Source of the DNA: Paramacrobiotus metropolitanus | Taxonomy: Eukaryota; Tardigrada; Eutardigrada; Parachela; Macrobiotidae | DNA: 64,000 nucleotides | Direction of reading: 5' to 3' | Assembly (NCBI RefSeq): GCF_019649055.1 | Contig: NW_026570235.1 | Location: 372,001-436,000 of the forward strand | The notes under the pieces: generated by a model | Told to the model about the DNA's origin: nothing | What the model saw: only the letters and a program-made list of their open reading frames with translations | Databases searched by the model: none | Shown here: positions 11,401-64,000 of the stretch, one piece after another | How the letters are laid out: every line of letters starts with the position of its first letter | Position numbering within the stretch: position 1 is the first letter of the stretch | Program-made: the position numbers and the translations under genes

Positions 11401-13874
11401 CAGTTTAGCATTTCCTCGTCTTCCTCACAACGAGCACTGAAACCTGATAATGGCTGTGAACAGCGACAAATGGCAGCCTAAAAAATCAACAATTTAAAAC
11501 CACGAAAAAGCAAGACAGGGCTACTACGTATCATCCTCACGTTGGTTTTAGGATACAAATACGATAAAACAGGAAGTCGACCCCGACTACGAAATCCGGC
11601 GCTGCCTAGCAAAATTTTTGGCGTTGCCGAGGAAGGAACGTAAAGAAACTGTGGATAGGTATCACAAACCTACGAGAGAGCATTAAACGTACTCGCAAAC
11701 AATCAGATTCAAAAGCGTTCCTAATTCCTACTTCATAATGCTGGTTCATCTTGGACAACACCCAGTGCTGGTTTGGAACGCCGATTCTTTGATACTCAGA
11801 CTGCAAGTCGAAAATATTCCATCCGGACGTTCGGTCAAAGCTCTCCTCGGGTGGATTGTATGAAAAACAGTACAGCTCTTCATATGTAGCTAAAATAATC
11901 AAAAACAGCTGTAAATGCACACTGGCATTAGGTCCAGACACCTGTGTAATTTGACCTGTTTTCTGGAGCTCACGAAGTTAGATTTTCGTTATTTTGAATA
12001 ACACAGCACAAGTGTTCACCTGGTTGTGCTAAGCGTAAAAGAGCTGCATAAAGCTCCTGGGAATCTCTGTCTTTGGGAATGACTAGTATCAAGGACAGAA
12101 ATGTTTTGCACCGGATCTGTAAGGGTGAACCGCCAACTGCCATCGATAAACGATCAACACTTCCGATATGCCCCAGAAGAACCTGCGACGACATTGCAAG
12201 TAAATTCTAATGTATAAACATGGAAAGCATTTCAATTTCTATTGCTAAATACAGCGAAACATTTATTGACAGTGTGAATTTGCTGAAATTTATGCAGTAA
12301 ATGACTCTGCTTAATCAAGGAATGTGAATATTCATGACGATCGTATTTACCCAAGTTTCCCGCTTCTCGACGGGATTAACGAAGATTAGATGGGTCGGCG
12401 TCAAGTACAGGGTACCAGTGGACGGTGTCGTAGATTCCATAGCGTTTCGGTTTTGCCAATGGTAAAATCGATCAAGTACACGGACATTCTCTATCTGCAA
12501 AATAATGCTAATTGTACATCCGACAATCTTATGGCACCATGAGATTTGCACATCTCCAATCGACTTTTTTCGTTCGATTTTGCCCGGCCTGATGGGTTGC
12601 CGGCAGTGGGAATTACGCCAATGTTCCCGTATCCACGCTAGATTAATTCGGCTAGTATTTTCCCTGTCTAGATAACGGTTTTTTGATGAACCGGTGATAA
12701 TTGTTTCACAGGCAGTGAAACGTAAAAACCATTTGCTAAAGCACAATGATGACGCCGGTGCTGGCGCATGCAGACAGTTGGACGCATTATCGATCCTGAA
12801 CACTGGGACAACGCTATGATCCCGCGGAGAGAAAAGAACAGATTGTCGGGTCGGAGTAATGAAGCTCCCGTTAAGAATAACCCAGAATCCTTCTGACTTA
12901 CATTAAGGAAGCAATTCCATTAACGCTTTCCTAATGTGCAGTTTACGTCGGCAAAAGACAGTACCAGTAGTTTAATTTACGTAGGATTCCAGCGCGTTAA
13001 AAAAGCTGAAGAGACAGGATAATTTGTCAAATTCCCCTCAAACGATTCTCACACCATTAAACTTTTTGACTTATGAGTACCACCCGGTATTTAATAGTTA
13101 TATAGCATTTGTTGCATTTGCTGACCTTGCTTTGAATTTCAAACCTGGTAAAGTGGCAAGATTAAAAAGCAGCAAATACGTTCCCGAAAACGATGTCATT
13201 CATTCAGACAGTCATATGAAAACTGTCTCTGATCGAAAGTACACCTGGGTAATGCACTTTGCGGACACTCAGTAGTCAGTACTAAAATCGCAGAATTGTG
13301 AACTAAAAATTTTAAATAATACCATTTCGTTATAATACTCGTACTGTAAGTATAGATATTGCACACAGTACCGGTACAATAGTCTTCTCTTCGAGCTATA
13401 AAACAAATGTATCCCGAAGAGGAGATCACCTAATATTTATATTATTATTTATGGTTCCTGGTTCCACTCAAGATTCGATATCCACGATATCATACGCTAC
13501 GCTAAGAAACGTTATGCTAAGAAATCCAGGATTAAAAACATGAATCTAAAAATGTACGTGAACTTTACCAAGATACGGTTCGCATACAACAAGTAACGTT
13601 GTACAGAAACGTAGTACGCGAAAAGCTGACAGTAACAATTTCGCTCAAAATTCATGTCTATCATTTTATAAAGAAACAAACAACAATATAACGCGTTTTA
13701 CAGGTGAGAAAGAGACGGAATGCACTAAAAAGGCACCACCGTAAACACCTAAACACTCCTACAGTGCGCTGCAACTGCGCGAACTAAAAACTCTAGCTCT
13801 ACCTGAAGCAATGGATTCTCCAGAATCAACGCCGTGGAATCAAGACCACCAACATTACGATAAAACGCTTCCAT
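8432..13874 (-). CDS. MTMR6: Myotubularin-related phosphatase, MTMR6/7/8 type with FYVE domain
   Basis: Exons in 5'-3' order: 13874-13803 (candidate), 12494-12351, 12182-12020, 11889-11732, 11669-11541, 11477-11343, 11280-11148, 10965-10835, 10664-10542, 10333-10017, 9596-9462, 9394-9268, 9189-8932, 8641-8432. All junctions keep phase, giving 744 aa with the candidate first exon and 720 aa without it. Myotubularins remove the 3-phosphate from PI(3)P and PI(3,5)P2 on endosomes. The PH-GRAM domain begins VRVLDRF...[12 protein letters not shown]. The catalytic loop HCSDGWDRT (Cys about 367) is intact, so an active enzyme is predicted. [24 protein letters not shown] and YLNPLY are MTMR6/7/8 marks. 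A C-terminal FYVE-like finger (PFSQFTVK, then [14 protein letters not shown]) spans the last intron; its first cysteine pair reads C-x-C instead of C-x2-C. Introns at 11670-11731 (62 bp) and 9395-9461 (67 bp) are very short. Confidence 0.92.
9699..9751. repeat. Nested inverted repeat inside an MTMR intron
   Basis: Arms 9699-9718 and 9732-9751 are 20-nt reverse complements with one mismatch. Within this, AAACGTACGGTTC and GAACCGTACGTTT form a second, perfect hairpin sharing the left arm. Just upstream, a direct repeat of AAATTAGTGCCAAG occurs twice (about 9648 and 9671). It lies in the 420-bp intron 9597-10016. Confidence 0.8.
13803..13874 (-). CDS. Candidate first coding exon of the MTMR gene
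   Basis: On the minus strand an ATG at 13874 opens 24 codons (MEAFYRN...LLQ) that end at a CAG|GTAGAG donor in phase 0, exactly the phase needed by the next exon at 12494 ([10 protein letters not shown]). The implied intron is 1308 bp. Myotubularins of this class have a short, variable N-terminus before the PH-GRAM domain, so sequence similarity cannot prove the exon. No better ATG exon with correct phase was found between 12495 and 13802. Confidence 0.5.
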
Positions 13875-35383: not shown

Positions 35384-38300
35384 ACGCCGACCGTTCGCAC
35401 ACCAACTGGGTGTCAATGGATCTGGGGGAACTGGATTCGCGTCGGGTCGATGCCCAGGGCGCCGTGAATTTCAATCCTTTCGACGTGGAGATGACCATCG
35501 ATACGGAGCACACCGATCGAAGGGATCACGATATGCCCGTTCCGTCTATCGATAACTATTCCTACACGACGCTGCCAAACATGGCAGTCACATCCGGTGA
35601 GTTAAATCTAAAAAACATTTCTTTTTATAAATTATGGCGTTATTTAAAAATTGCATTTCGAGAAAATTGTGAACATGACAGGGGCGAGAAGCGGCCCGAC
35701 TGTGTTTGCAAAGTATGATGATTTCCACACCATCGACTGGCTGCGTGATAATGCCATGGACCGTCAGCGTCATCGGCAGTTCAATAAAGTCAAGAAGAAG
35801 TCCATTCTGGACTACCTGCGTAGTGGAATGGATGCTGGATCAGCATGGCTGTGTGTCTTTCTTGTGGGATTGTTTTGTGGTGCGTCCTATTTCAGCACGG
35901 TTTATTTCACGGAAGTGTGACGGGAAATGTTTATTCTCGATTAGGTTTGTGCACATCCATGCTGGATATAGGGACGGCGTGGCTAATTGATTTACGGAGT
36001 GGAATATGCTCTGTGGGATTTTGGTATAACAGGGAACAGTGTTGTTGGCAGTCCAACGAATTAAGCTTTGATGGTGATTTTAACTGCACAGAGGTAAAAT
36101 CGTTCTATCAGTATGGTTATTCGTAATTTTTTTAGTGAATACTTTGTCCAGTTAATTTTTTTGTAAATTCGACATACACTACAGAACATATATTGGTTAT
36201 GATAACTTTTAAAATATGAAGTGTCCGTAATCCTGATCGTACAATAGTCATGTAAGTTGAAATTAGGTCAAGGCAAATAATACGTGCCACCTGGATTTTG
36301 TTTTAAGTACCTTTTTAAATTTTATGACGATAATTTTTCTAGTGGAGAACCTGGTCTAACTTGCTGGGCCATATTCCGGAAGATGCTGGAGCCTATGTTA
36401 TCCAGTACTTCATGTATATTTTGTGGGCTGTGATTTTCGCTTGGTTAGCCGCCACGCTGGTGCGCGTGTACGCCCCTTATGCTAGCGGATCTGGGATTCC
36501 GGAGATTAAGACAATACTCAGTGGATTTATTATTCGTGGATATCTTGGCAAATGGACGCTGATTATTAAAATTATTTCCCTTATTTTTATCGTTTCGTCC
36601 GGAGTGAATGTGGGCAAGGAGGGCCCGATGATCCATATTGCTGCGTGTTGTGGAAATATTTTGGCATATTTATTTCCCAAGTACGGAAAAATGAAGCAAA
36701 AAAGCGAGAGGTTGGTTACAGGTTGCGGTGTTGAATCTTTTGACTTTTCGTATTTACATTTTGCATTTTATTAGATCCATTCCGCCGCTGCTGCTGCGGG
36801 CATTTCTGTAGCTTTTGGTGCGCCCATTGCCGGTGTTTTGTTTAGTTTGGAAGAGGTACGCAATTTACTTATTAACGGTACGAAATTTTAATTATTAACG
36901 GACACTTGGACCCCTGCGGTGTTTTAGATTAGCTATTATTTCCCCCTGAAGACTTTATACCGCTCTTTCTTCTGTGCTCTTGTTGCTGCATTCGTTGTGA
37001 GAAGCATTAATCCCTTCGGCAATGACCATTTGACAATGTTTTATGTGGAAGTTCGTAATCCATGGTTTTTCTTTGAGCTGATTCCCTTTATTTTTCTGGG
37101 AGTTTTTGGGGTAAGTATGAATTTGGCATGTTAATATGTGCTGCAAGTGCTTCTATAATAAACCTCTGTGTAGGGAATTTTTGGGGTTTTGTTTATCAAA
37201 GCAAGCGCATGGTGCTCCAAAATGCGCAAAACTACTCGCTTGGGACAGTATCCCATTTTGGAAGTCGTAGCCATGGGTTTTTTGACGGCCGTACTGAGCT
37301 TTCCTAATCCTTACACGAGAGAAGATAACAGTGCTCTCATCGCGCGACTCTTCCATGACTGTGGCCCGGCAGACGTCTCTGAACTTTGGTATGTCGCTGT
37401 TGTTGATCAATATGCTTGCGTAATCCGCGTGCTTTGGTGAAGAAGAAAACGATTATGATATCTTTTAAAGTGACTACAATCGCACTTACGTGTCAGTCAC
37501 GGCTGACTTTGAAAAGGCGGCTCCGAATTCCGGAGTGACGAACGCGATGTGGAAGCTGTTTTTGGCTTTCGTTGTGAAATTTGTTTTGAGCATCATGTCA
37601 ATCGGAATGAAGGTATGTTCATGTAAAATCTTCTGCTCAGCACGAACAAAATGTGAGCTGGTATGGTTCCAACAGATCCCGGCCGGAATTTTCATCCCGA
37701 ACATGGTTGTCGGTGCCATTGTAGGACGGATGCTGGGAGTGGGTATGGAGCAGCTGAGCATGTAAGATTCTGTTGGGCCTTCTTTTATCCATGGTATCTA
37801 TCCAGTGGATTAATCGCCGCTTGTCACTTAGGACTTATGCCGAATCGGCATTATTCGTCGCGTCGTGTGGCACCTCTACGCGCTGCGTTACCCCGGGATT
37901 ATATGCCGTGATTGGAGCGGCGGCTATGATGGGTGGTGTAACACGTATCACCATATCCATGGTGGTTATTATGGTGGAGGTGACTGGCGGATTGCAGTAC
38001 ATTGTCCCTTTAATGGCGGCTGTTATGACGTCTAAATGGGTCGGCGATATCCTTATGAAAGAGGGAATGTACGGTTTATCACTAAAAGATTATTTATTAT
38101 CTGTATGACAGCTTAATGACGATTTGTTCTTAGTTATGAGGTGCTTATTAACATGAATGGATATCCGTTTTTGGATAATAAAGTGGAATTCCATCACACG
38201 ACAGTGGCGGCAGACGTGATGCGACCACGACCAACTGAAAAGGATCCACTATGGGCGCTGCCACAGGATTCCATGACAGTCGAAGAACTGGAGCATGTAG

Positions 38301-40008: not shown

Positions 40009-43000
40009 ATGTCAGATTCAGAAGACAGCTTTCACAGCGTGGAAGAAGGCGCTGAAGATGTTTGGACGCGGGACGAAGAAGTGGATTCGGAAATCGAAGC
40101 GCAGAACGAAGAAATCAGGAATACTGTTATCCCGGGCAATGAGCCAGATTCCCAGGAGCCAGCTGAATCACTTCCTAGCTCTAGTTCAGAAACGGAATTC
40201 TTAAAAACTGATTTACCGGGGCTCGTGCGCAGTGAAGAAAGGTAATGTGTTGTACGTCCGTTTGTTGGTATGTGGTTGTTTATGGTCGACGGTCGTCAAC
40301 TCATCGTTAGCGCAAACATGCTGATGACGAAGCTTTTTTGTTAGCGTCACAGTGAATCTGGTCTGTGTTCGTCGATTTGTTGTGAGAGAATAGACGGTTT
40401 TTTACGCTTGAGGATTTTGAAACGGAATCCGGAAAAAAAATCGCGTGTAACTGCAGTGAATTCATCATATAGATATTATAGTATTTTGATAAGTATATAT
40501 ACAGATAGATATACTACATAATTGTTTTCTACATAATACATACCACATTTTTAGACGTGCTTATAGAGGCGCCAGTTAATGTTCATTTTTAATGTTGCAG
40601 AAGTTTCTCTGCTCCTGCTGGACTAGACCAAGGCGACACCCAGCATGCAGAATCTGCGTTGACAAGGTGAATATTCCTGTTTATCTTTGTTGAAGAATGC
40701 TTGTGAAAACTAATTGTTTTAGTGAGCTATCAAAGTGAGTAATATAAATCACTTTGGAGCTGTTGTTAAGCATTCGCTGTTCGAAAGAAAAGGGCTGTTT
40801 TAAAATGCTAGAATAGCTGTTTCACTAGTTGATGGATATTTGAGCTTAATGTAAATAGATTTTGCTCGTACAGTTTAAAGAAGGTCAGCTTTGATTGTGA
40901 ATTGATATGTGATTCACGGTTTGTTGAGGGCGAGTCTGGACGACGATTTTTGATCGCTTTCTAGTTCAGAATTTCGAAATCTGTATGATCTTTTTCTTGC
41001 TCTTTCCAGTGAAAAACTTCCAGCGATTCAAAAGAGTGCCCCTGCTATTCCTGTGAAGAACGAAAAGGGTGATACCGACCGCTTTCCGAATCCTCTGACC
41101 TTGCGCTCTATATCCGAAACGGAATTTATGGAAGAATGCATGGACAATCCATGGGATGAGGAATGTCGAGATTTAGATAAACTGATAATCTCCGCGCCGG
41201 ACAGCCCGTCGGTGCAGTCCGACAAAGACAGTAACAGTGAAACGAAGGAATGGGATAAACTGAGTACCAACGGCACAGACAACGGCAGTGCGAAAGCCGC
41301 CATCAAGACTGCAGGAAAAGAAACTGTTGATCAGAGTTTATTAGATGAATGGGAGAAAGGATGGGATGATATGGAGTTAACCGAGGAGGATTTTATACCG
41401 GTTGCTCTGCCGCCTACAGTTTTGCATCCGAGACCGGTTCTATCGGAGACAGCAAAAACCATCTTAGAGGAGAGAGCTCAGGACGTGTCCAGTCCATTGA
41501 AAGCTCTGGTGTCTCCTCCTCCGGCACCCCCGGAAGCAAGCACTAGTGGCGGGTTGCTGTCTAAATGGGGCGGATGGGGAACGTCGTTGTTATCGACAGC
41601 CACAGCATCGGTCTCCACGTTATCCAGTCAGGTTGGACAAGGACTGAATGCTGTTTTGGAAACCGTGGAACAGGGACTTGGCGCTCCGAAGCCAGAAGAA
41701 CTGGCCTCCATGGATAAAAGTAGCGTGGAAGAAGTGCGTCGGTATTTTTTATCGTTGTTGGTTCTGACATAATTGTAAAATATGTATTTTACAGCTGTGT
41801 GATCAGTTTTACAATGATTTTATTTGCAGAAAAGTCCCACCGAAGCTGCGCAATCTCCGGACGTGGATACCGGATCGAGCTGGCTGTCAGGAATAACGGC
41901 GAAAGTACAGACGGGAGGTTTGACCTTGGTTTCCGGTAGCCTGGATGTTTTAGAGGGCATTGGAAGAAAAACTATGGATGTAATTAAAGAACGGGACCCG
42001 GGATTACAACAGACTAAAGCTCTATTAAAAGGAAAGATCAATCAACCGAATCTTTCTGAGGTGCAGCTTAGATAGATTTGATATGAGTCCAAAGTTATAA
42101 TTGCGCTTTGAGTTTTGTTGAGAATATGTTTTTTTATTTTTGCTTTTCAGGTTTTACGGGATGCTAAAAGTACGAAATCTGTCGCGGCTGGTAAAAGTCA
42201 CTCTGTCTCAAGGGACGATCAAGTCTCATTTGTGCAGTTTTTCGATGAGGAACAAGGAGCAGGATCTTGGGAGGCTCTGGAAATACTGAGCCAGCAGTGC
42301 GATGAGCGCCTGCAACAGCGATTACAAACGCGTTTGGATCTCGAAACAGAAAAGTGGCTGCTGGAAATCGAAAAGCTCTGCGTTCTGTTGGATAATGAAG
42401 ATTCCCCTCGAGATAGAAATTTTGTAGAGACAATTCGGAAGGAATTCCATTCTCTGGGTGTTGGTATTCCGGAACCACATAAACTGATTTTTGTCCATTC
42501 AAAAGCCGAAGAGTTCCTCAATGAGCACTCTAAAGCACCCGAATCGGATGTTGACCTTTGGTGCCGCAATGTCCACAAAAACGCCGGTAGGTCGACTTTT
42601 GAGTCATAAATGTTAATTTTATTTTTTTCTTGGCTTATCTTTTTATTTTTTTGTTGTTCATCCTTTCTGCAGTATATTGTGTAAAGACTAACGGTCATGT
42701 TTTTTTTGCAGTGCGCACTTTCGCTGCATGTACAGCGAAGTCTCTTGAACAAATAAGGAAAATTACAGAAATGATTTACTTAAATGGTTCCAGCGGGAAG
42801 CAGGATGGGATTCTACTTGTACATCGCGTGAAAATCGTGCGTGATATCTTGCAGAGTTTATGCGGGGAAGTGGACAAATTAGCCAATCAGTTTGCCGGCT
42901 GTTTGGCTTTGGGAAAAGGCGCTGCAGTGGATTCGAGCAAGATGCAGAAAGATATTACTGCTCGAATTACGGATATTTTTGTCGAATCAGCCAATAGCAG

Positions 43001-46900: not shown

Positions 46901-49900
46901 TTAGAAAAGCTGGTTTTGTCACTTCCGGCTTAGACAATTATCCCGTGTACGCGCTAATCTTCTACATGCCGGTTACAAATTATCCATTGCAATACAATTA
47001 GCGCCTGACCTTCTTCGATATCGGGTAGCACATCGAATTCATTACTGGTCTCGCAGCCCGGGAACGGGATCAGCGGATCACGGAACGGTGTCGGCGGCAC
47101 TTCCACGATGTCGGCATACATTTCCATGTAGCATTCATTAGCTTCTTCGGGGATGGGAATCTGACAGAGATCAATGATATCCGGATCCAAGTACAGTGAT
47201 CCGACACTCTGCCGGTGATCATTACGACTATCAAACGGGCGCATCTCCATATCGGCCACGTTATCAATGTACACCTGAATACCATCGCTGTTGTACTTGG
47301 CCACATCATCCGGACTGTGCAGGCCGAAACTGGATCCGCTGCGGAAGAGTGTCGACGGCGGATTGGCGATGCGATGATGATGACCGGCTGCGGTGGCAGC
47401 GGCTGCCGTGCTGATGCGTGCCGCTTTTTCCGCCAGCGCCCGATGGATCGGGCTATCGGTGGGCGTCGTACTGACGCTGTCGGTCTCCTCGCTATCCGAA
47501 CCCAACTCCATCTTATTCTGCCAGGCAAAATTGACATTATCGGCCGGTGTCGTGGGCGTCCGCAGACTGCTGAGTTTCTCGGCCAGTTCGGCCACGGAAC
47601 CGGTCTGCGAGATACTGCGCTTGATGACATCCGGTTCGTTACCGGTCGGACCGGTTAAGTGCGGATTGAAGAGCTGCGGTCGGAACCGGATGACGTCGGT
47701 TTCGCGGATATTGTGCAGCTGCTGTTCGGCGCGTTTGAGGGCGCGCTCGGCGATGGGCGTATCCAGCTCGGACGATGTGGAATCGTCGATGAATTTCATA
47801 TTGCGAACAATATCGGGCGGCGCCAGTGTTGTTGAGGTTGACGAGGGGGCGGGGACTGCAGTAATGGGTCCGGGCAGTGTGATCTCCACATGGGTTGGTA
47901 TGGTGACCGTTGGCGGCTCGGGAATGTCCGCTGGCTTAGCGAGTGTGACCACGGATTCCGTGGACGACTGCAGAGAGTCGGATTTTATGGACACAGAGAG
48001 CGGATGTGGCTGCAAATGAAATATGCATCAGTAGGATGAATATTACAGTATGTACATGCAGTTTGTATTTCAAATTCAGCTTCTGGATATTTTTAGAGCG
48101 GCGCATACAGATAGGGTAGATGTTTGTGACCCATACTTGCTATGTTGCTATAATTAAACTTTATGTTTCCAGACACAATGATCTGAATGTGCGTATAACC
48201 ACGAGAAGTTTTATGAATTTGTACTGTTTGCGCTTTTGTGGCATACAGGAAACTGCAACGCGTTACTATGTGTAACCACGTTACAACAGAAAGCGGAAAT
48301 ACAATTGTATCGAATTTTTTCTGTCACAGGAGACCTACGCTATAGTTTCAACTGCATTACAATGATACGAGACATATCTGGATGTTTATGACATATCTAG
48401 ATGTCGGACGAGGTGTAGCGTAATGTCATATTATTGAATCAAATTAACATGTTAATTTGATTCATTAATATGACAATTACGCTACACCTCTGTAAAAAGC
48501 TGTACAGCTTTTACAGTGTATGTCTGTCTTTTACGGTATGCCCGGTCTGATAACATGTTATGCGCAACCCAGGTGACCAAACGTTAACTGACCAAAAGAA
48601 AATTATTTATGCTAATCCATACTGGTCTTATGGAAAACAAATATAAAAGAGTCGAGCCTAGCAAACCACTGTTGTAGATCGACATTCATAAATAAGCGCG
48701 GTAACATCCAATATGTGCTTGAATAGGCTGATTCACTTTCGACAAGATTGATTGCGAGTGATAAGTGTTATATAACTAAATAGCTGCAACTTAATATTAT
48801 AACATATTAATTACTGTGAGTTTTAGCTTGCTGGAGCGCAATCTTTGTACAACTGGAAATGTGCTTGCTAATTACCGTAAAATAGCAAAGCAAATAATTT
48901 ATTATGCATTATTTTAGTTTTAATTATGAGCTGTTGCAGTTTCTGGATACCTATGTTTAATCCTTAATTTTCCTTATTAACTGCGGAAGAGATAATGGCA
49001 AGTTAAAACCGCATGTTGGTACAGCAATACATAATGTTTGGAACAGAGCCGCTTTCGACCATTATAGACGATCACGCTTAGCATGTCTTAACAGAAAGGC
49101 TCGAAGTACAAGCAAAGTCTTTAAACTGAGCTTACGCGTATAAGTATAGAAGCACTCTTACCTGCGGTTGAACAGGAGCAACTGACTGGGATATAGTCGA
49201 CGGTGCGTTGGCCTGATTATTAATGTTTTGTGCTGACAAGGGAAGATGTGAAAAATCAGCGTAATGCTCGGCAGTATTTTTGATAGTCTCTTCATTTAAT
49301 TGGATTGTTATCGATTTGAGATCGGGCGGATAACTCCAGGGCATGGAATAGACAACATGATGTCCGTAATACGGCGGAGGCTCTGTATGTTCAAAGATGA
49401 AAAATAATTTCCTATATAAAGTGTTTATGGGGTGACATATATATGAGGCCCAACTGTACCGCCGGGTGATTTATTATCATCCTTGCCGTCGTCAATAACC
49501 AATACTCTCAATGGGATCCCCACAAACAGCTTGGAGTAACCGTTGAGTAGCTGAACCATATCATCAAGATCATCGCTACTTTCGGCTTCAAATCCAAACC
49601 GCTACAAATTTGTAACTCTCAGAGATCAATCGCAAAATACACGCAGCTTGTATTAACTGCATCGGCGTCGCCAGTGTATGCGACGATGTGTATAAATTTA
49701 GGCGGGTTACATCCGGCGCTAAGTATGCACGTCCGTATGCAAATGCTAAACAAGCCGCATTTCTTAGGGTTTCCATTACGCTTTCCTTACTTCGTTTAAG
49801 GGAGGCTTGATGTGGATCTCGATGGAGTGGAATGCGTCAGGAATTTCCGCCACAATGACTTCGCTTATTGACTCTAATTCAGTTAACATCACAGGCTGCA

Positions 49901-52900
49901 AAGACACGCAATATTATAATTATTACACTGTTCCAAAGTGGTTTTATGGTTTTAAATGTAAAATTATGAGTAATAAAGCGTTACAAATTCAGATATATTT
50001 TGTCATAACATAGATGAATAAAAATACCAATGCAGGAGCTTCTAGAGACTTTATTTTTGGGTATGATTTTTCCAGACAGGCTCTTTGTTAAAATAGAATC
50101 ATGCAGAATAAATTATTATCAAAATTTTGTTGGATTGTTGTTTCCGAGTTTCGCCTAATCTGCATTTCAAGTGGGGAATTAATTCAAGCCCCACAAGTTG
50201 TGGGAAACGAAGCGCAAAAGCCAGAATAACAGGGAGAAGACCACAACGTACTGAGCCGCTCTTCGTGCCGGAAATTTGACTTATCCCAAATTTAGGCGAT
50301 ATCAGGATTAATCCATCGCTTTTGGTTTCCTGCAACACGATGGTTAATTCATTTTCATCTTGTCCCAGTATCATTATTATCTCTCAGATGAACTGATAAC
50401 CTTTAGCGCTGTTGCGCAGTTTACATTGGCTTACCGGTATAGTGACGTTAAAGCAGCGTCCGCCAAAGGTGGGCAGCTCGCTAAGGATTTTTAGGTAATG
50501 AACCTTAATTTGCACTTCGCTTAGCTTTTTTTGCCCCGGCGTCGACAGTTGTTGATTGTTGATTTTTATTAAATGCGACAATAAACGCCTTAACTCTTTT
50601 GTTTCATAGCTTCGATAATGGAGGGAGGAATGAATCGCTCGAGACCACACTCTTTCCTGTTAATGTAACGAACAATAAGTCCTGAATTTTGCGTACCTGA
50701 AGTGAACTGTACATGTTTTGGGCGAGTACTTACTCGATTCGTTTCACAGATAGCTTTGCCCCAACGTTACTTGTTAAACCGTGCTGCTGCATCTGAAGCG
50801 CCGCTAACCGCAGAGCAACATCGCAGCGTAATTCAGTGGCAAATCTTTCATCAACAACATCGTTACAACACTGTAATGAGAACACAGAAGCATGACGTAC
50901 AACATGTACAGTTTTAATTCCCGTTACAAAGGCAGATCATTTGTGCATGTAATTTTAATTAGCAATACTGTGACTGCTACTTACAATCCGTGGAGAAAAG
51001 TAAGCATAAAAGGCGCTTAGGTTGCTGTGTATAATTTACCTGCATATAAAAATAATCAAAGGCTATCGGGTCTCTTCTGAGGAGATCATACGCATCCCGG
51101 GGTACAAACACTACACGGAATAGACATCGCAGATGTTGGGCACCGGGTCGCGCTGCCACCTAAAACGCATAATGTTGCTTGACCTTTGGAATTTACCCCA
51201 AAGTTTTTTAATAATCCAAAACAGGCGTTGAATGCATAAAAATATATGCCATAACGCGCGTCTACCAGATAATCGCGCACTCCAAAGTTTTTTAGTTACT
51301 GTGCTTAATTAATTTCTTAGAGCTAACCTAAATAAAAACAAATCTAACCTTTGAGATGGTATCTTCGGGGCTCAAAAGCTTGAGCTGATTTTTCTTTAGG
51401 CTTTTCACATGTTCCACAACTAATGCAAAGTGCTCTATGGCTTGGATTGAAAGCTTTTCTCTTAAAGAGTTCATCACATCCTGCAAAAACACATACTTTA
51501 CAAAAGGCAGTATATGATTAGCTATCGTTTTTGCTGATTTAAATGTAAGGCCGCACGCTGCATGCGCACAAACATTTCGTCCGCTACTTCGATATTATGA
51601 GCAACTTACTCGAACTGTGGTTTTATTATCGTATTTGAAAGACTTGGTTTGTCCATTTTCCAGGAATACTTTGAGAACATTGGGTATAAAGGGAGTAGAA
51701 GCGGGATCAGGGGCGCCGGCTGGAACAATATTTCCGCTGCCGTTTATTACCACTCCGTCGGCAAAGCGCACACGCGATGGCTTATTTTTTAATTTGGCTT
51801 TTTTTGCCGCACTTAAAAATGCCGATTTCCTGCTGGCCTACACAATGACAAACCCGGTGTAAAAATCAATATAAAATCAATTGCGTAAGAAATAAACAGC
51901 TTAAGCGACGTGTTCATAAATTCGCAAACTGGTGCGTGCTATTATGCAACTGCATAATACAATTATGCGAACTTGAGGTATTAAGTGCCTAATGGATGGC
52001 CACACAAAAGCAATGATCGTGTATTACAATGCAATTAAGAGCATGCGTGAGCACTTCGCTGTACATATATTACTGCAAAACGATGCGACTGCAGCATATT
52101 ATATTAGTCCATTTTAAATTGTTGCAGAACTTACAGTCTGATTTACTAAAACTGCATGCCGTTTCGAATGCCAAAGCTGCATTAAAGTAATTCGTAATTT
52201 TAAAAAAAAACGGAGCGCAAAAAGTCCGAAAGAAGCTAAACTTTTTTTCAAAAATTATGAAAAAACCCGGAACGACAAAAATTTATTAATTTACAGAGTT
52301 ATAAGTTCGATCGTATTATTGTGCTTTTAATATGGTATCGTTTTTCATACTTACGTTGTCACTTTGCGGTTGACATACGGTAAGCGTCACCGTATCTTTG
52401 CATGATCGCACCAGCTCGATAACATGGTCCCGTGGCGCTTTTTCCACGTCTTCCCCATTGATTTTGAGAATGAGATCAGAAGGAAGGAGTTTGCCTGCGC
52501 TTGGTCCATCTGCACGAACACAAATTATGTATGTATAATGTACATGCAAAATTATGCATCCCGTTGTGTCATTTGCAGTGGATCTATGGCCACCTGTTAC
52601 AACAGCGAGAAACACTTACCTTCGTTTACAAAACGCACTATCACCGGCTTCTCGCTTCCTGCAACAAATCCAAAACCAATATTGGGATCACGGCGCAGGA
52701 CAACATCCCGGGGAACGGGATAGAGATCCTGCTCGGAATCGTCGTCGCCTTGCAGCAGCCGCGGATCGTCGTACGTGGTGAATTTGTCGATATGACTATG
52801 TAAAAGCGTTCACACAACAAATAAGATATGCTTAAAAACAGATCTAAGAAATATTTAGCTCATAGATGCACATTAAAAGGTTAGCAATGCAACAGTTTTG

Positions 52901-55900
52901 CTTTCTTTTAATTTACCTGCGTATCCATTATAAATTTTGCAACGACAATCTTTGTTAAAACGTTTACAGTAGCTGTCACATGTAATTCAAGCAATTCAGT
53001 TGCAATGTACATGTATAACATGTACACTCGAGGTTAGATCGGAATGTCCGAATAGAAGAACAACAATTATCGCCGGAATAATTTCTTAGTTCGTAGTTCG
53101 TACGCGATATTTCAGTTCGGAATGTGTTATTACAGCACTTTTTTGCTTTTTAGTTTGACATATTCATATTAGATTAGAACAGGATAAAAAATTACGTAAT
53201 GTCATGATCATTCGTTCCGGCTCATTAATGAAGTTCCAGCACATTTACAAAACTACCAAAAACCGACACATTGTTCTCCTTCTCAGGACGCCTATTTATT
53301 GCTCTTTGTAAATTTTTGTATAAAGTCTGAGTCATTTCTATCAAGTTTGGTTTGTGCTTGAAATAGTGCGTTAATTACGAATATTTACATTTTTGGTTTG
53401 TTTAAAGTTCGCTACTGTGATGGAGAATATGTCATTTTAAACAAAAAAAATTCCCGGTTTACATGAGTGTGGTTGATTTTCGTTAGAGTGCACTATTCTC
53501 GGCACTGGTGACATAGATCGTCGCGCTTGTTATGAGTGCAAACATGCAGAACAAAATAAGCCCGCACAACCGGAAATTGCCAAAAGTGAACCGATTTTCT
53601 CGTTCCCGTCTTTTACGAGATATTATTGTGGTTTCGCCGGAACGTAGTCTCCTCTACAGCAGGGCGCCTGTGGCTAAAAGCACACAGGGCGTACACGTAC
53701 TTGATGTAATAGATCCGACCCTGCGAATCAGCTCCGCATTCCCATCCGTAAGGCAATCGCCAGTCGCCGGCATCCCAGTTTTCCGCTGGCGGTATCCAGT
53801 TGGTTGTTTGAGTCCCATGGCTACAACAATAAGCGGTTGGTGTGTCTGCATTCACATTACAACGTGACACTCTTTTATCATTTAAAATTTGCAGTAAACG
53901 AATGCATTTGCATATATGACACCTTTCGCAAAATCCGTAAATTACTCATAGTGTTTTTACTTTTTAGAGGTTTCAGCATGATTAAAAAATGAGCTAACAA
54001 CTCTACATAAAAATTTTGAATCACCTAAAGCGCATATTATCTGCACAAAAAACATTCCAATATCCGCACGAAATGTGCCATTTCTGAGATAATTAGTGAC
54101 TGTTTAATAAATACCATATATTACTCGTATGTTCACGTTCTCGGAGTAATTTTTATGACGTCCTTTTGTATACTGCCGAGTTGCAACTTGCAAGAGTGCA
54201 GTGCATGCAACCGCACTTATTAGTAGTAAGAAAAGCATGCAATTGACGATTAAATTACCAGAGTATACGATACTGGTTTTAATTAATTTGACTGTGGAAT
54301 TTTGGAAAATCGAAAATAGTGCAACTGACCACTACCACAGCAGCGTCATTATCAGACTGGATTGTTGTGGAATCGATAACAGCTGATCTGTGATTCAAAG
54401 GTACTGCAAGCACACTGAACACTGTACAGCACCACATTACCCTGAGAAAACAGAAAACTTCAATGAAAATAAAATGCTGTTTTGCATAGAGCCGCATTAA
54501 TTGACAGGGTTTTTTAGACAGCCAAAACCCCTGGGGTAGAATAACAGTGGAACACAAAGGACCCTGTCATATGCGTAAGATTTCCAAACACAAAGCAAAA
54601 ACTCAGACAACTAGCCTCGTAAAAGATTAAAGTGAGTTATCGATAAATTTAAAATATCCCAATCGAATTCACTTGCGCTTAGCCCATTCCTTTTTCCAGT
54701 GTTTGCGCTCATCTGCTTCGCTTCTTTACCCTCGGGGCCTTTCACTTAAGCAAATAATTTGTTCGGCCACCCTGAAAATCGATTTATCATTTGGCGTATT
54801 ATACAGGAAAGGGAAATTTAAGTCTAATAATTGTATCCAAGAAAAATTTAACGAAAAGGTACAGAGTGGTTGGGCGTTCTACTATATATAGTTGCGCAAA
54901 ACTGGGTTAAACATATATGCATATTGCCGGCACATTGAGCGTTATCTTGTTGCTGGTCACTATGATCCTAGTCATGTAATGAAGCTATTGCAAATAACGC
55001 CACTCTTTGCACGCTTTTTAAACCATACTGCCACAAAGTTTCCAACCTCCGTTTTCAGGTTGCACGAAATTCCCGAAGAACTCATATGCACGTTCCTGTT
55101 TATCCACAAATAATAATCCCATCGTTGTATCCACATTACGCACACGGTGACTAGCGGATATACTTAATATGCAGTACAGATACGCTGGTTATGCTTTTCT
55201 GTAAATTGTATTTCAGCATCGGTCTATCATTGCGCAATAACTCAAGCTTCGATAATATAGAGTCACATTAATTAATATAACTAGCATCATGTCAAATTTG
55301 TTTGTACTGTATGTCTTGCTTTCCTTCCGAAAAAATCTTTTTCGCGAAAGAATCCAGGTCTGACAATGTGGATTACCAGTAAACTTTGATATGCCGTGTC
55401 TATATATAGTAAACACAAAGGGTCATTAATATGAAGAGGGGTCCGAGATTTTTGAATGAGAGAACGGGATAGTGAGTTAAGATACAAATTGTAACGCTAT
55501 AAAAAGTTCTCAAGTATCGTTCAGGCAAAATTTTATCCAGTACAACGGTTTTCAAAAACTTCTCAACAGACAAGAAATCTGCAATCGCCACCGGAGCTTG
55601 TCGGGTCTGGATGCTCGACGTATAATAGATGGAAACGAGCTACTTCAAAGCTTCTTGCTCGTTTATTATCAGCCATTTGCCTGACACTACGTATCAGGAA
55701 ACGAACCCCCAAAAAAATCAATGACCGACACAGCTGTATATCTTAAGCATACTTTAGGCCTTAAAACACATACATATACGAGAGCCGGCTCAGCATTCAA
55801 TAACGCTCATAAGCAAAAATCAACAATTTAAATTTTCTTACAGAAATTTACAGAAACAGAAATCTGTACATCAGCTAGCGCGAAAAGTACGTGCACTTTT

Positions 55901-58900
55901 TTACCGTGAGCGTTAACATTTTTACGTTTTCTTATTAGTGCTCTACAGTCTACACATGACTTGATCCGTTGGTCAATCGCATGTGGAGTTTAGAAATTGA
56001 ATTAAATGTGCAGATGTGCATCGCTTCTGTTTTTGACGGCGTGTAAAAAGCCGTCGACTTACTGTACCAGACTCATCAATATCGCAAGTCGATTATGACT
56101 TTAATGATTTTACTGGAAGCTAAGTTTTTGTTATTTCAGCCGTCTACCTTTGAAAACATTTAGTTGGTATTATTCCACGGTACGATTTCAGGTTTTTCGA
56201 GATCGCGGTTTACTAGCGGTAAATGCTAAAGGATTTTAGGTAGCGCCATAAAAATTAAGAATTATTTGAAATAAGTAACTACTGCAAATAGCTTCACCAA
56301 ATGTAAAGCAAAATGTCTTTTAAACATAGTTTAGCTCGAGAGTAATTAAAGTAAGGTCAATTTTAACCATGTAAAAAACCGCAGTAACCCTTAAATGCCA
56401 CTGCCATATTTAATGCAGTGTCACATTCCTTATGAATTTGGGCACACCGACGCTGCATTACATGAAAAATTTTGTAAAATGCTATCTAAATTGAAATACT
56501 TTGCATCAAATTCGACCTATTATTAATTTCCGCATGGAACACAATAGAAGTAAAGTAAAAACTTACATTAGTTTTTTGCGTTTTTATTTTAACTATGCAA
56601 TTTTTCTCTGTAAGCCAAACAGGGGTTGAATCCGGCCGCATTTATGCAACATATTTAAGTTGAAGTGCTAGTTCCTGTTTTCTTTCCGTGCAGCACGAGC
56701 AGTTAGGGCAGGAAACGGTAATTTGACTTGGTCGTTTATTAGAATTAGTGTACTAGAAAAACGAAGTAGGCATATTTACTTGGTGTCATGCGTGCGACTT
56801 TGAGACGTTTGAAATTAGATACCCGTGATTAACAGATATTTCACAAGTACACGCAAACACCTACCTGACGCACGACACCGGTGCTTTTTTCGAATGATTA
56901 GATGTATTAGCAGCTTTTTGGCGATTGGTCGCATTACTGTGCTTATTTCCCATAATCGAGACAACACTCCCAGCATCACAAGCCGAACTCTAATTTCATT
57001 CCATGCGATAATAATGTAATGCAGTATGCAACAGTTATGCCTTCACACCAACATCGATCCCAGTTCTAGTACGGAATTTTAGGGAAATGTGCCAACTCTC
57101 GCGTATTCACATATTATTATGTGTATACTGTATACCCGGCATTTTCATTAAAATGACAGTCCAACGACCGAGCGCTGTTATCATTGTCATAATGCACAGA
57201 TAGTCGGCAATATTAATTTCCGCAATATTTCTCGGTATTGCAAGGGTTCCACTGCTGGGAATAGGTCGATCAATCTTGGACTGGAATGTCAGAAAATACG
57301 TTTAATCGCCTTCAATTTCGCGCTCAAACAGAGAAAGACCAAAGAAGATGTGCGTAGGGTTACGACCCTGCCGAATGCTTCGATTGTGGCCACGGCGCGA
57401 GCGCGCGCGTTGCACAGTGCAGTCAGCAGGACAAGGAAGAGTGCAGGGGAGAATTTCTTTTCATACGGGAACAAGTCTAAAGGAAACTTATCCTAATGGA
57501 TCTCATTGAGCCTGACACAGCATCTGCACCAACTCGTCCATCAGATCAGCTGCGATATACACATATCGCGCAACGCGCAATTTCATATCAGACTGTGATG
57601 AGCGCTCATAACTGCTGCATTTATCTCCCTAATCATATCCGTGCCAAATAAAATATCACTGTCTATGTAAAACGTATGTCCGACGGGATATCAGCAATTG
57701 TCAAATGATCAGACCTTCGGGTTCACACACAATGGTACACCCAATGTCACAAAAGATAGCATTTGCTATATATAGGTGTTGTATACAAAATACGGGAACA
57801 GGTCTCCATCATTTCTGCTACAGAGAGGAGCGCCGGGCTGGAGTGCAGTGGGAGCATTAGCATGTACGTGACTTTGAAGTGGTTATCCATTTATACATTG
57901 CCCAGGTACAACGAGGTGTTCAATATTTGCAAGCACTTAACACGAACAATTTAGTGCCACATCCCTGGCAGATACTGCATATGGTGGACAAGATTCAGAT
58001 GACACTTATCTATAATATGTAACACGGAAAAATTTCCGCAAAAAAATAACACACTAGATCGCTAATAGCCGCCGACAAATGAGACATGAAATTGACCAGC
58101 TGGATGCTCATCATGAATTCACGAAATTGTCAACTACATACGCTGTGTCGTACAGGCCGAAAAGGATATTTCCTGTTGGAAAACGGCCCTTGTGCAGTAC
58201 TACGGAAAATTGCTTGATGATCGGCGTTACGTACAAATTTACGAGTTGCCATGAATTGCCGAATCGCTATTCAATATGTCCCGTGTCATTGCCTATACTG
58301 CCCGACTACATGCAGTGCACAGCTACGTACACCACACAAGGAATGTATAAAAACACTGGTTAGCCGGCAACCGATGTTGTCCCCTAAACCCGCCTTTCCT
58401 GCCCAAGTTCAACGGATGAGCACTTTTGCCCTTAATAAGCGGCTATGTGATTGAGCTATTAAATTCAGGATGGCTCCATAGCCAGTGGAGCTATTCGTTC
58501 CGGAAAGTAACAGTGGTATGTTATAGGGTCGGTGTATCTGTATGTACACATGTGTGGCTGTCTTTAAACTCATTTGCCATGGTGGGTGGAGCTGATCACG
58601 GGAACATCCCTGAAACTCTCCAGCCCGCAAAGTTACACGATGTGCTGTATCCACCCGAACATGTGTGTGAACAGTGAAAAATCTTGACTGTATGCACTGC
58701 ATAGAGTGTCCATGGTGTGTGTATGCATTATGCATACTGCCAACCACAAAACCCAAACTTTTACGGCTGTAAATGGTGTGCTTCCGGCAGCTATCATCGA
58801 CAAGCTTCCTCCCCGCCTCTTCCTCTTATTCTCATTCTCTCGCATACGGACAGATAATTCCCCTCTCACTCTCTCACGTATTATACCCATGTAACACTGA

Positions 58901-61900
58901 TACCGCAATGCGATCCCGCGCATGTATGCTGGCGTTTTTTGCCTAAGTCCAGGCGCGCGCGCGGCACATCGCAGCTAAGCCGCATCCCGCGTCTGATCGT
59001 TCTAGCGGGAAACGGTTTGACTGCCTATATTGCATCACAACACCGCCAGCGAGCAGTCAAATGCGAAATGCGCTGGATTAGGAAACTGTATAATATTTCC
59101 CAGTGGATTGTATTTAAACCTATTAAAAGTTCCAAATTTTCTCCTCTTCGTAATCCCCGGCAACATCCCCGGCTCCAGCTGCCGGCCCTGGCTTAATTGT
59201 ATAACTTACGACTTTTAACAATTTAGCTCGCTGGAAAATGCTTCCACTGGGTCAGCTGACGCAAATCACACTGCTATCGTTCAGAAAAGATTTGTATGAT
59301 CTGCATGGTACATACTTAACTAATCTGGCTCTGTAAATTAGTGTTCCGGGAAAAAAGTGCACATAAAAACCAAGAGTCGAGCAGCGTTATACGGCATTTA
59401 TAGGATGCAGTACTACTCACAGCGAACGCCGGACATAATCACTAATTGCCGTTAGTGCGCCATCTTGTTTCTCATAGTTTTGCCACAGAAAGTTCATTTT
59501 TAATATTAATATTTTATACACGCATCACAACGGTCAAGGTCCTCCGTCCCTCGCCCTTTCTGTAGATGTCAGAACCATCTCACCGCAATGTGACAACGTA
59601 TCAGTTGTTAAGAGCACTGTGGCGTTGAACGGAATCGGCGGCTAAAAATGTGTACTCCGAGTAACCCAATAAATTCTCGTACTCGTACCATCCCAAATAG
59701 ACTATTAAGACACGCCATAATTTGGGAGTAAGAATTCTTGTCCAAAATTCCAGTAACGTAAGCAGTTCGTGATTTTCAAGATTATCGTAAGGAATACTGC
59801 ACTATATAAAAGCAGTGCATTAAAATTTTCAGAGATGGTGCGAGTTCGCTGAATTTGGCTACATTGCCATCCAATGATAATTTTGCGCACTTTTCAATAG
59901 TAAGAAACCAGATGCTTTATTAAATTTTGCAACCATACATTTAGATGTTTGCGGAATGTAAAGAAGCAAAATAGCGCGCCGTACATCCCCGGCCCAGTCA
60001 GTGTTCATGTACATAACGTGTACAAATGTGGAAGACACAAAATACCGTTTTAAGACAGCAACAGCAAGAACAGACTTTATATATTGCGCGTTTATATAGG
60101 TTAGAAAAAGTAGAAAGGATAAAATCTCAAATGATGTGTCGTCTTTTGTTTTGATTCTCGTGTACTCGTAATTCCTTACCACCAGATTGCATTTAATATT
60201 ACCAGGTCTTTGATTATATCTTTACACTCGTACAGTGCCTTTGCAGCTCATGATCATTAATCTTTGCAAAACGTGTCTGATAGTTTTTGCAACACTTCAA
60301 AATTTAGACATTATAATCATTTTACAATCATTTTGTTTTGCACAGTTGACCTGATCCTACCGTGTAGCTACGGTCTTCCCGTACAGTCTTACCAGATCTT
60401 TGGAAGATGTAACATAGAAATTTTTTTGCGTTTCGCAGCTGCTTTTTCTTTCTAATTTGCTCAGAAACAAAACATAGTTTACCATATCTAAATAAAACAC
60501 ATTCTTCGGTTTTTATACATCTTAATTCAGTGGAAAAAAGAGACGCAAAAAGGTATCCGTAATTGGACCTTGTTACAAATGTCAAAAAACCTCATCATTC
60601 AATGACCTCGCCGGTGTCGGCAAACCTCGCTCTTTGAGCGGTTACCATTAATATATATTCAAACTAAAGCAACAGTTTAAATGCTGCAAACTTGTGCACA
60701 TGTTTGTGCCGTTGTTTTATTTCAATGGTCCATTGTGCCGGCTTTTCGACGCCCATGCTGTAAAAGTGTTGGTACATAAATATGTGCTCACGAGGGTACT
60801 AGTACAAATACGATATCTTTCATGAAGTTTTATTTAAAATGCAGCACTAAATTTGAGAATCAACATTTCAGAACAAAATTTTGTCAACGTATTGTTCTGA
60901 AAACACAGATGGATTAAAACGTATAGTAAGTAATTAACGATATGTATATATAGGGAGGGTCACACCAAATCGTGCAGCCTATAAAATCTTGTAAAATGAT
61001 TGCAAAGCTTTGTAAAAATGCGCTCATCGCATTGACTTATTATCAGCGTCCTTGACTGCCTGCGTATTCCTTTGCGTCGTGCAATGTCAGTTTTTCTATC
61101 GATTAGGTTTTAGTTTCTGAAACCTGCAGTTTGATGTGAACATTAGATACATATAAATATACCTGATGGTAGCAAACTCAAAAATCATTTGCTGTAAGGA
61201 AAATTTGCATCAGAGCAGGAGAACAAGACTTGCATTACCAGGACTTATACTGCGACACCTCCCATGCAGCATCAAGTCACAATCAAAGTAATCATTTTTG
61301 TTATGTCTAATTACTTGCAATCAATGCAGATCAGGAGCAGCTAGGTTGGTACACGGAATAAAGCAGTAGCGAGTGAAGCAGTACTTGGCCAGTTCTTCTA
61401 GCGATCACTTTAACAATTGCAGTAAAGCCTGCATGGTCATAAGCTGTTGCTTTTCAGCTTGGCTAATCACGCCGCTCGCCGTAAGGTTCCAAGTTCCCAT
61501 CGTATTTGCAAATGGAAAAAAGCATTGGATGTAAGGTAAATGACCTACACTCATATATATGCACAAGCATTTTCCATGAGGATTCCGGTCTCCAGTGAAA
61601 GCTCAGCGACTTTAAAATGGATGATAGTGTGACAGAGGTCACTCTGTATCTTGTAACAAAAACTGTGATCTACACCTCCTAATTTCTAAAATAACAGCGT
61701 TTTTTTCCGCGCGCTATTTAATTTATTTCAGGGAATATGACAAGCAGCAGAGTTATAATAAGAGCACAAGTTATTATGGTAACCATACTAATCGCATGTG
61801 ATATACAATATTTACTCTCGAATCCCTTCTGCGTACAAAAACTAACAGTAGAGCTATAACAATCCTTCTGAACGGAGGGGCTATAGTCGCAGAAAAAAAT

Positions 61901-62138
61901 TGTTAGGAAATCTGTAATTTCCACTTCCTGCTTTACTATTTAATGGTATTTGCTCAGACAATTACTTGGTGGCAGTTACGCACCTGCTGTAGTATATCCG
62001 ACCGTAACGATCCAGATTAGCGGTCCATCCGCTAATTAAGTTGGTGTTAACGGATTTTACATAATCTTGCGATGGGAGTTTAGTCGGTGATGTTGGTTCG
62101 TCATGTGTCTGTCTGACGCTTACAACTGGGGCCGCCAT
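43964..62138 (-). CDS. FRMPD4: FRMPD4-like scaffold: tandem WW, PDZ, FERM, long tail
   Basis: Fifteen exons: 62138-61984, 53820-53701, 52795-52620, 52509-52355, 51837-51610, 51480-51349, 51159-51040, 50870-50734, 50651-50435, 50380-50252, 49895-49791, 49601-49460, 49382-49162, 48009-47010, 45714-43964. The total of 4788 nt gives 1595 aa and every junction keeps phase. WW1 is at about 35-65 ([15 protein letters not shown]) and WW2 at about 74-105 ([17 protein letters not shown]). PDZ is at about 118-198 ([16 protein letters not shown]). FERM is at about 255-590 ([45 protein letters not shown]). The tail is Pro/Ser-rich, and a roughly 165-residue Cys-poor helical block (about 1392-1557) ends before a His-rich C-terminus. 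Vertebrate FRMPD4 (Preso) is a postsynaptic scaffold. The N-terminal exon joins WW1 to WW2 exactly in phase 2. The acceptor at 50652 was chosen over one 5 nt upstream because it keeps the frame. Confidence 0.92.
45715..47009 (-). other. Intron 14 of the FRMPD4-like gene
   Basis: 1.3 kb between the two large tail-encoding exons. Donor GAAG|GTCAGG, acceptor CCATAG. A TACGAGTA octamer is at 45979. No gene seen. Confidence 0.6.
48010..49161 (-). other. Intron 13 of the FRMPD4-like gene
   Basis: 1.15 kb, donor CAG|GTAAGA, acceptor TTTGCAG. It contains the large palindrome 48410-48490 and a 19-bp direct repeat just upstream of it. No gene seen. Confidence 0.6.
48410..48490. repeat. 81-bp near-perfect palindrome
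   Basis: Left arm 48410-48450 and right arm 48451-48490 are reverse complements with one mismatch and one single-base indel, with essentially no loop (centre ATTAACATGTTAAT). The arm tip is GAGGTGTAGCGTAA. A second short palindrome, AAAGCTGTACAGCTTT, follows immediately (48496-48511). Direct repeats of GACATATCTgGATG precede it. Confidence 0.85.
53821..61983 (-). other. 8.2-kb first intron of the FRMPD4-like gene
   Basis: The interval between WW1 and WW2 exons. No conserved exon was recognised inside. A minus-strand frame at 61718-61924 encodes a cysteine-containing segment followed by one strongly hydrophobic helix, but has no ATG and no partner exon. Three TACGAGTA octamers are present. 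The rest looks like A/T-rich non-coding DNA. Confidence 0.6.
61984..62138 (-). CDS. First coding exon of FRMPD4-like gene (WW1)
   Basis: A 155-nt exon starting with ATG at 62138 ([15 protein letters not shown]...) and ending in AGCAG|GTGCGT. Its last residues, [15 protein letters not shown], are the first two strands of a WW domain. Joining to the exon at 53820 completes it as [12 protein letters not shown], with the second tryptophan and the proline in place. Phase 2 at its end equals what exon 53820-53701 requires. It is only 51 codons, so it is easily missed by ORF length filters. Confidence 0.85.
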
Positions 62139-64000
62139 CTACCGGTACGCCATACTATTCCTCTTCCAATCCGAAAAATGGTTTGCAAAAATATTCAAAG
62201 TATTTGACAGTTTCTGACAAGGCGATCCACTCTATATTCCAGACAAATTAGACTCCATCGGTACACCGATCAGCATTAAGTAGCGGCGTTTATTGGTTGA
62301 CAACAGGTTTTAGATCCGACGTATTTTTACGTTGACGAATGCTTAATGATAGCTATTCCGCAATGGCAGGGAGATGATGATCATGATGATGATGATGCAG
62401 CAGCCGCTCTCTATATAAAACAGAGATAAAATGGTAAGATTTATGTACCAACTATCACTCGTTAATCCATTTCATTGCCGATGCCGCTATAGTGCGGTGA
62501 TGGACAGAAGGCAGTGCAGACTGAGTGCGGCGTGTGCCCCAATATGATTTGAACAGTAAATGCGTCCTTATCAAAACACTTTACAGCCGGTTTGTGCTCC
62601 GCGGACAGGTAATGTGACAACCGCGATTGTACTTTAATCATGTTGATTCTAGTTTTAAACTCGCCAGTCATTCAAACGCCGCATTATGCCAGTGGTGTTC
62701 AGACGTTTTGGTTATTTAGCTTTTTCACTGCGCACCAGGCCGGCACAGCATCATAACAAACCAGCATGTGGCAGAATTAGCAGTTTCGCTTACAAGATTG
62801 TACAGCGCGGTAGATATTGATTGTATTGTGATTTTCAAAACGTTGTTATTAGCTATACAGTTCTGCAGACAAAAATAACCTACAGCCCAAAGTAAAAGGG
62901 GGTCAGCTGCAGTCACAATTAATAATCTGATAATATGCAACGATGGCAGAAATCACTATCATTAAGCGAAACAATAATATTTAATTTTTGAGCCCACTTA
63001 AAACTGAACCGTGCGCTCAAAAGCCAAAAACATATAGTAAGCGTTCAACTGTTAGGTATTAATTTATACCCCGATAATAAATCAAACAAATTGTACAATA
63101 ACAGCAAAAAGCGCGGCATTATGTTACAACTTACAAGCAGGTACGTTAAATTAGTGTTCTGTGGCGCACCTTTCACCGCTTCACAGTAGGTACCGTTTTC
63201 GGTTATTGGTTTAAAATGTCCAACAGACTTACATAAACACTTTACAGACGATTGATCAATATACTGAACTGATGAGAAAGAGTGCCTTCTGCTGCGAAGC
63301 ATTGTTTTCACTGTGTTCCATTGTAAAACGTTTCCACAAAAGTTACAATAGCTGTACAATATAGACTAAGTGGCCTTTACAAAGCTGAAATAACGCCACT
63401 GCGACTATGTTTTTAAGACTGTCGAGTCTGACTTAAAGTAACGTATGAGCAAGAACAATGGCTCAATAAAACATTACGTATGCGCTGCAATACGTAGTGC
63501 AAGCTTGATAACAATATACAAAAGCAAAATTTTAATGACACAAAAACAGAGATACACGTGCAATCATATTAAGGTTGTACTCGCACAGTTAAGCAATGTA
63601 TTCTGCAAAATTTAATAACCATGCAGAAACAGCAATCTAAAATTATATAAGCTAACGCGCTGTTGATTATAGAATGTAGCATATCAAAATATTTATGCTT
63701 TGGTTCCTGAAACAGTAAAATATTTTAAGCATATTGACATTTTATCATTAATTTTTGGGTCTGCAGCTATCAGATGGAAAATAAAGGATAAACCCATATG
63801 CAAGCAAATCATTTCATTAAATTTAAATACGCTAATAGGACATACACTTTTATAAGAACCTCTAAGAATTTGAAAAAATGGATATCTGAAAGGGACCGGT
63901 CATAAATGAAACCGTACATTGGATCTATAAACCTGCGTGCAGTGGACCTTTGTATCTCAACTTGTTTGATCAGCTTGCCATCTTTAATTTATCGTATGTA
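62139..64000. other. Upstream region of the FRMPD4-like gene
   Basis: Holds the presumed promoter, a short GAT/ATG trinucleotide run (62373-62397) and several short minus-strand frames. One (about 63154-63303) reads MLRSRRHSFSS...VKCLCKSVGHF and ends at a possible donor AAAG|GTGCGC. It has three cysteines but no recognised family. No firm gene. Confidence 0.4.

Follow-up and report, generated by a model that had tools for sequence, protein, structure and literature searches.

A predicted distant first exon and a predicted pair of WW domains in an FRMPD4-like gene of the tardigrade Paramacrobiotus metropolitanus

An FRMPD4-like gene on the minus strand of the window (the whole stretch of 64,000 nucleotides analysed here) very likely starts at an exon more than 8 kb away from its other coding exons and specifies a protein of the order WW1-WW2-PDZ-FERM, in which the two WW domains would be tandem duplicates that act as two loosely coupled grips. 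The WW-WW-PDZ-FERM order, predicted from exon anatomy and profile matches, is well supported. The initial annotation proposed that a 51-codon exon at 62138-61984 on the minus strand, 8.2 kb upstream, carries the front half of another WW domain; the coordinates, a consensus donor of phase 2 and first rank among 418 comparable sites all bear this out. Its further proposal, that the next exon (53820-53701) completes the split codon and supplies the rest of the domain, holds as well: the exon 2 acceptor reads TTGTTGTAG|C, and the codon divided over the exon 1/2 junction is AG|C, Ser. The features of the gene are as follows.

61984..62138, minus strand: exon 1, 155 nt (51 codons plus 2 nt), starting MAAPVV, front half of WW1; donor CAG|GTGCGT, phase 2
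53821..61983, minus strand: intron 1, 8,163 nt, splitting WW1 within the codon that precedes the conserved His
53701..53820, minus strand: exon 2, 120 nt with phase 2 at both ends; completes WW1, then linker and front half of WW2
52796..53700, minus strand: intron 2, splitting WW2 at the same residue and in the same phase as intron 1 splits WW1
52620..52795, minus strand: exon 3, back half of WW2, then the beginning of the PDZ domain
52355..52509, minus strand: exon 4, remainder of the PDZ domain
51610..51837, minus strand: exon 5, linker between PDZ and FERM, and start of FERM
51349..51480, minus strand: exon 6, FERM
51040..51159, minus strand: exon 7, FERM
50734..50870, minus strand: exon 8, FERM
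50435..50656, minus strand: exon 9, FERM; reading frame broken near 50593 in the assembly

All joins between these exons are splice-consistent, and the joined frame has no stop in exons 1 to 8 and continues into exon 9. There a stop stands beside 50593, and a shifted frame seems to continue the same FERM domain; the break is either a slip of the assembly or a real lesion in a broken copy. Pfam matches in the joined protein run in the order WW (two stretches), PDZ, RA_2 and FERM_M, so that WW and PDZ lie ahead of FERM as they do in FRMPD4. The FERM part matches PDB 7byj, the solved FERM structure of FRMPD4, with an E value of 9.2e-61, and the next-best match is protein-tyrosine kinase 2-beta (E 1.9e-09). 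By these sequence matches the gene is a relative of FRMPD4 (Preso) in this animal; the 22 sequences found at E <= 0.01 include neither FRMPD3 nor FRMPD1, so that they do not separate FRMPD4 from these paralogues. The exon 1 sequence occurs once in the genome (169.8 Mb, 533 contigs). A second copy of the gene was not seen among 13 protein matches in the animal's own genome, nine of which fall within this gene, two in a WW pair on C40 and two elsewhere.

By profile alone WW1 is marginal, so that its context has to decide. Together the two WW stretches score 46.0 bits in the joined protein. WW2 alone reaches 36.9 bits, above the curated PF00397 cut-off of 26.9; WW1 alone reaches 19.1 bits (E 0.0014), beneath that cut-off, and the exon 1 peptide by itself gives no Pfam match. 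The significance of WW1 in a domain scan, which the earlier reading had singled out as a point to check, is therefore borderline, with the E value in its favour and the cut-off against it. WW1 is here called a WW domain by its predicted anatomy, not by cut-off. Inspected by eye, it retains both signature Trp residues, the GR-YY core, the His and the closing Pro. It carries SS at the ligand pocket, with Ser where a hydrophobic residue is usual, at what is presumably a pocket position. WW2 has Tyr at the position of the second Trp, and its pocket is present.

The context of exon 1 can be expressed as a WW-front score for stretches of 16 residues; its matrix was built from 17 of the 30 WW matches found in the animal's own genome. 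The 13 matches left out are that of the FRMPD4-like gene itself (L039) and partial or weak ones (L026, L028-L030, L033, L035, L037, L038, L040-L043); among the 17 used, L034 and L036 lie under the Pfam cut-off, and L003 and L032 are one residue off register. The sites that could join exon 2 are the minus-strand GT sites between 53.8 and 72.0 kb that lie in phase 2 behind 16 open codons, 418 in all. The exon 1 donor heads this set with 13.4 bits, about 15 bits clear of the next site at -1.6, and it also heads the 15 consensus-like donors of the set, where the next scores -8.9. Across the whole window, taking either strand and any phase (10,159 GT sites), the WW2 donor scores 32.9, the exon 1 donor 13.4 and the best remaining site 9.2. 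In 30 kb of control DNA from three other contigs, one of 4,955 sites reaches 12.6 bits, in phase 1 and with no consensus donor; a control site so near 13.4 bits means that the WW-front score by itself is not conclusive. Codon usage was also tried as support for exon 1 and was dropped. The exon's own frame is the best of three, yet 3.1% of 620 overlapping stop-free intron windows match it, and the same test ranks the true frame of exon 2 lowest of three and so has little power.

The positions of the introns provide a further line of evidence. Intron 1 falls in WW1 exactly where intron 2 falls in WW2, within the codon preceding the conserved His and in phase 2, and this coincidence points to tandem duplication; judged by sequence, WW1 and WW2 are probably tandem duplicates. 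An ancestral WW domain that already carried a phase-2 intron before its conserved His would have been duplicated, and because the duplicated unit held the intron, exon 2 bears the back half of WW1 together with the front half of WW2. Of the 50 bases that precede the two donors, 27 are alike without gaps. In the 36 bases that follow the two acceptors 12 are alike, which is near chance, so that the back halves keep no trace of the duplication at the DNA level. Four of the 30 WW matches in the animal's own genome cover a front half only, with spans of 1-23, 1-24, 1-19 and 1-23, and that of the FRMPD4-like gene is the only one to end at 19; this front-half comparison is a limited control, as the corresponding back halves, being so short, do not reach the list of matches.

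The spacing of the pair resembles that found in ITCH (WW3-WW4) and WWP1, ubiquitin ligases of the NEDD4 family. The two-WW span aligns with theirs 69:69 without gaps, and the second WW domain likewise lacks a second Trp, ending TTYIDPR or TTFKDPR. The pair on C40 of the tardigrade's own genome, which is taken here to be of NEDD4 type, differs in lying within one open frame that lacks the intron at position 19. The tardigrade pair is five residues longer than that of SAV1. KIBRA and MAGI2 share with it the presence of two adjacent WW domains in a scaffold protein, and the initial annotation had likened the pair to theirs. The spans do not agree: the tardigrade pair is seven residues shorter than that of KIBRA (70:77) and six shorter than that of MAGI2 (72:78), and coupling of the KIBRA/MAGI type was rejected on this spacing. 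In the WW supramodule of KIBRA and MAGI2 the inter-domain linker is given as 23-24 aa, and coupling of the KIBRA type is described as needing an alpha helix after WW2 (PMC6744271). In the tardigrade protein the closing Pro of WW1 and the LP of WW2 are ten residues apart. The PDZ match starts 26 residues past WW2, at profile position 9, which leaves little room for such a helix.

Two alternative accounts concern WW1 and exon 1. Exon 1 may be spliced as described and WW1 may still be a degenerate, non-binding fold that serves at most as a structural cap for WW2. The score under the curated cut-off and the Ser pair at the pocket speak for this possibility, which is unlikely, but the signature residues listed above are all retained, and WW1 at 19.1 bits outscores the hybrid formed by joining exon 1 to exon 3, which Pfam scores at 16.3 bits (E 0.01). 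That the hybrid might be the stronger domain is rejected on these figures; the halves of WW1 suit each other better than the WW1 front suits the WW2 back. It is far less probable that the front half at 61984 is open by chance or is part of another upstream gene, with exon 2 joined elsewhere. The control site of nearly equal score in 30 kb and the weak codon signal of exon 1 leave some room for chance, but a chance stretch would have to show the right strand, order, phase and donor consensus all together, to stand clear of every other site among the 418 by the margin given above, and to end at a boundary that matches the exon boundary of WW2. As for another gene, no listed ORF of at least 100 aa overlaps exon 1. 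For the six ORFs of at least 90 aa in the stretch that corresponds to 62.0-72.0 kb, Pfam gives nothing at E <= 1, and hence no neighbouring gene is seen as an owner of exon 1.

A WW1 headed by exon 1 is the preferred reading, and the remaining rival concerns where the protein starts. Exon 2 is separated from the upstream stop (53948) by 41 codons that lack an in-frame ATG, and some upstream exon is therefore needed unless translation starts at a non-ATG codon. The start codon and the transcription of exon 1 are predictions; its ATG has T at -3, and a short upstream frame abuts it. Intron 1, in which repeats amount to one weak 31-nt pair, also offers a competing first exon.

62139..62153, minus strand: uORF of four codons (MAYR), its TAG (62141-62139) abutting the exon 1 ATG in frame
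56865..56953, minus strand: predicted candidate first exon 1b, starting MGNKHS; A at -3; donor CAG|GTAGGT, phase 2

Exon 1b is the last of three candidates in intron 1 (61027-60966, 60485-60361 and 56953-56865), each with an ATG, 8 codons or more and a phase-2 donor that fits G|GT[AG]NG. Its N-terminus, MGNKHS, fits MGxxxS/T, a pattern for N-myristoylation at the protein N-terminus. The gene could start at exon 1b with a phase-2 join to exon 2, giving a putatively myristoylated protein in which WW1 is headless and WW2 complete. Exon 1b could take the place of exon 1, though a second promoter used alongside it is more likely. This account is unlikely, although several features recommend it. Judged by eye, its donor is the best among the three intron candidates, and its ATG has A at -3 together with G at +4. 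Its codon score (-0.077) is close to that of exon 1 (-0.066), unlike those of the other two (-0.415 and -0.701). It is also the sole exon with an MGxxx[STCAG] start among 145 ATG-exon candidates (all phases, both window strands and the 30 kb control, most upstream ATG used). The presumed human FRMPD4 N-terminus likewise has no WW front half at that point. Against these stand the post hoc discovery of exon 1b, its short peptide and the little power of codon scores; moreover, exon 1b leaves the WW front half at 61984 unexplained.

With exon 1 as the start, the proposed protein can be outlined in steps. (i) A transcript that begins at exon 1 would, by the splice-consistent exons, encode WW1-WW2-PDZ-FERM. 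(ii) Given the ITCH WW3-WW4 spacing, the pair is most likely two loosely coupled grips, and it would be predicted to bind proline-rich ligands with two motifs. (iii) By analogy with vertebrate FRMPD4, the PDZ domain beside the pair would serve for C-terminal tails, and the FERM domain for receptor tails. (iv) Since exon 2 has 120 nt and phase 2-2, skipping it keeps the frame, and splicing of exon 2 could alter the number of WW domains with the frame unchanged.

PMC10965980 gives the N-terminal order of vertebrate FRMPD4 as WW, PDZ and FERM, and describes binding of group I mGluRs by the FERM domain and a C-terminal PDZ-binding motif in Preso. The tardigrade protein shares the order and the FERM match to 7byj, and differs in the additional WW domain in front and possibly in its C-terminus. 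A C-terminal PDZ-binding motif and a Homer-binding motif would be expected of an FRMPD4 orthologue; the C-terminal ORF (45688-43967, minus strand, 574 codons) ends HDEHIK, and a PDZ-binding motif is not seen at that end. The best Pfam match of this ORF is 14.2 bits to PF11139, against a cut-off of 35.

Comparison with the human N-terminus bears on the direction of change. In an alignment with the presumed N-terminal sequence of human FRMPD4, 79 of 149 residues are identical (53%), and the alignment begins at SSH, the exon 1/2 junction. On this sequence the human protein would have only the back half of WW1, behind a different first exon. Pfam finds one WW domain in this N-terminus, at 18.1 bits, and no match in its first 33 residues alone; by this presumed sequence, a WW score under the cut-off would not be unusual for FRMPD4. 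A human N-terminus that retains the WW1 back half would make the pair ancestral and the vertebrate form reduced, its WW1 front having been lost, a lead that depends on the presumed human sequence being right. The initial annotation called the tardigrade protein an expanded WW-WW-PDZ-FERM scaffold; the order is upheld by the splice joins and Pfam, whereas expansion may be the wrong direction.

A broader scenario, which is rather improbable as a whole, would place the origin of the WW pair, through duplication about a phase-2 intron, at the very start of bilaterian FRMPD4. The first exon would then have been swapped in vertebrates, which would have kept an unnoticed headless WW domain (presumably SSHRTKSSGWPPP). 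In the tardigrade, exon 1 would yield two WW domains, skipping of exon 2 one hybrid, and exon 1b a lipid-anchored headless WW1, so that the choice of first exon and the splicing of exon 2 would determine how many WW domains the scaffold has and whether it is anchored to the membrane.

Should the pair be ancestral, the residues ahead of the vertebrate WW domain would be a relic and not filler, one could ask which ligands the missing WW domain bound, and any gene model beginning at exon 2 or at a short first exon would lack a domain. The distant first exon may let tardigrade FRMPD4 hold partners by two WW domains, against the one described in vertebrates. A preprint associates FRMPD4 with intellectual disability, with epilepsy and with loss of hearing, and relates its fly orthologue CG42788 to hearing (PMC13060437). 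A two-WW FRMPD4 is not described in the portions covered of the main-text literature on FRMPD4/Preso, CG42788 and tandem WW domains, including PMC13060437, PMC10830384, PMC10965980 and PMC6744271. Among predicted proteins in public databases, the pair may already be present in other invertebrates. Pattern searches gave 48 matches in viral contigs and 170 in genome contigs with no relatives among them; both collections are non-animal and are uninformative on animals.

Some further features of the window were noted. Between coding exons of the FRMPD4-like gene, at 48410-48490, lies an inverted repeat with two nested arm pairs, in which arms of 26 nt agree at 96% with no spacer and flanking arms of 15 nt at 100%. 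This near-perfect hairpin of about 81 bases is perhaps a small mobile element. Among the 10 of 47 listed ORFs that were scanned against Pfam, neighbouring genes are represented by UNC-50 (155-793, minus strand), an MTMR6-like GRAM domain (12318-12803, minus strand), a piece of a CLC chloride channel (36361-36771, plus strand) and DUF719 (41053-41769, plus strand).
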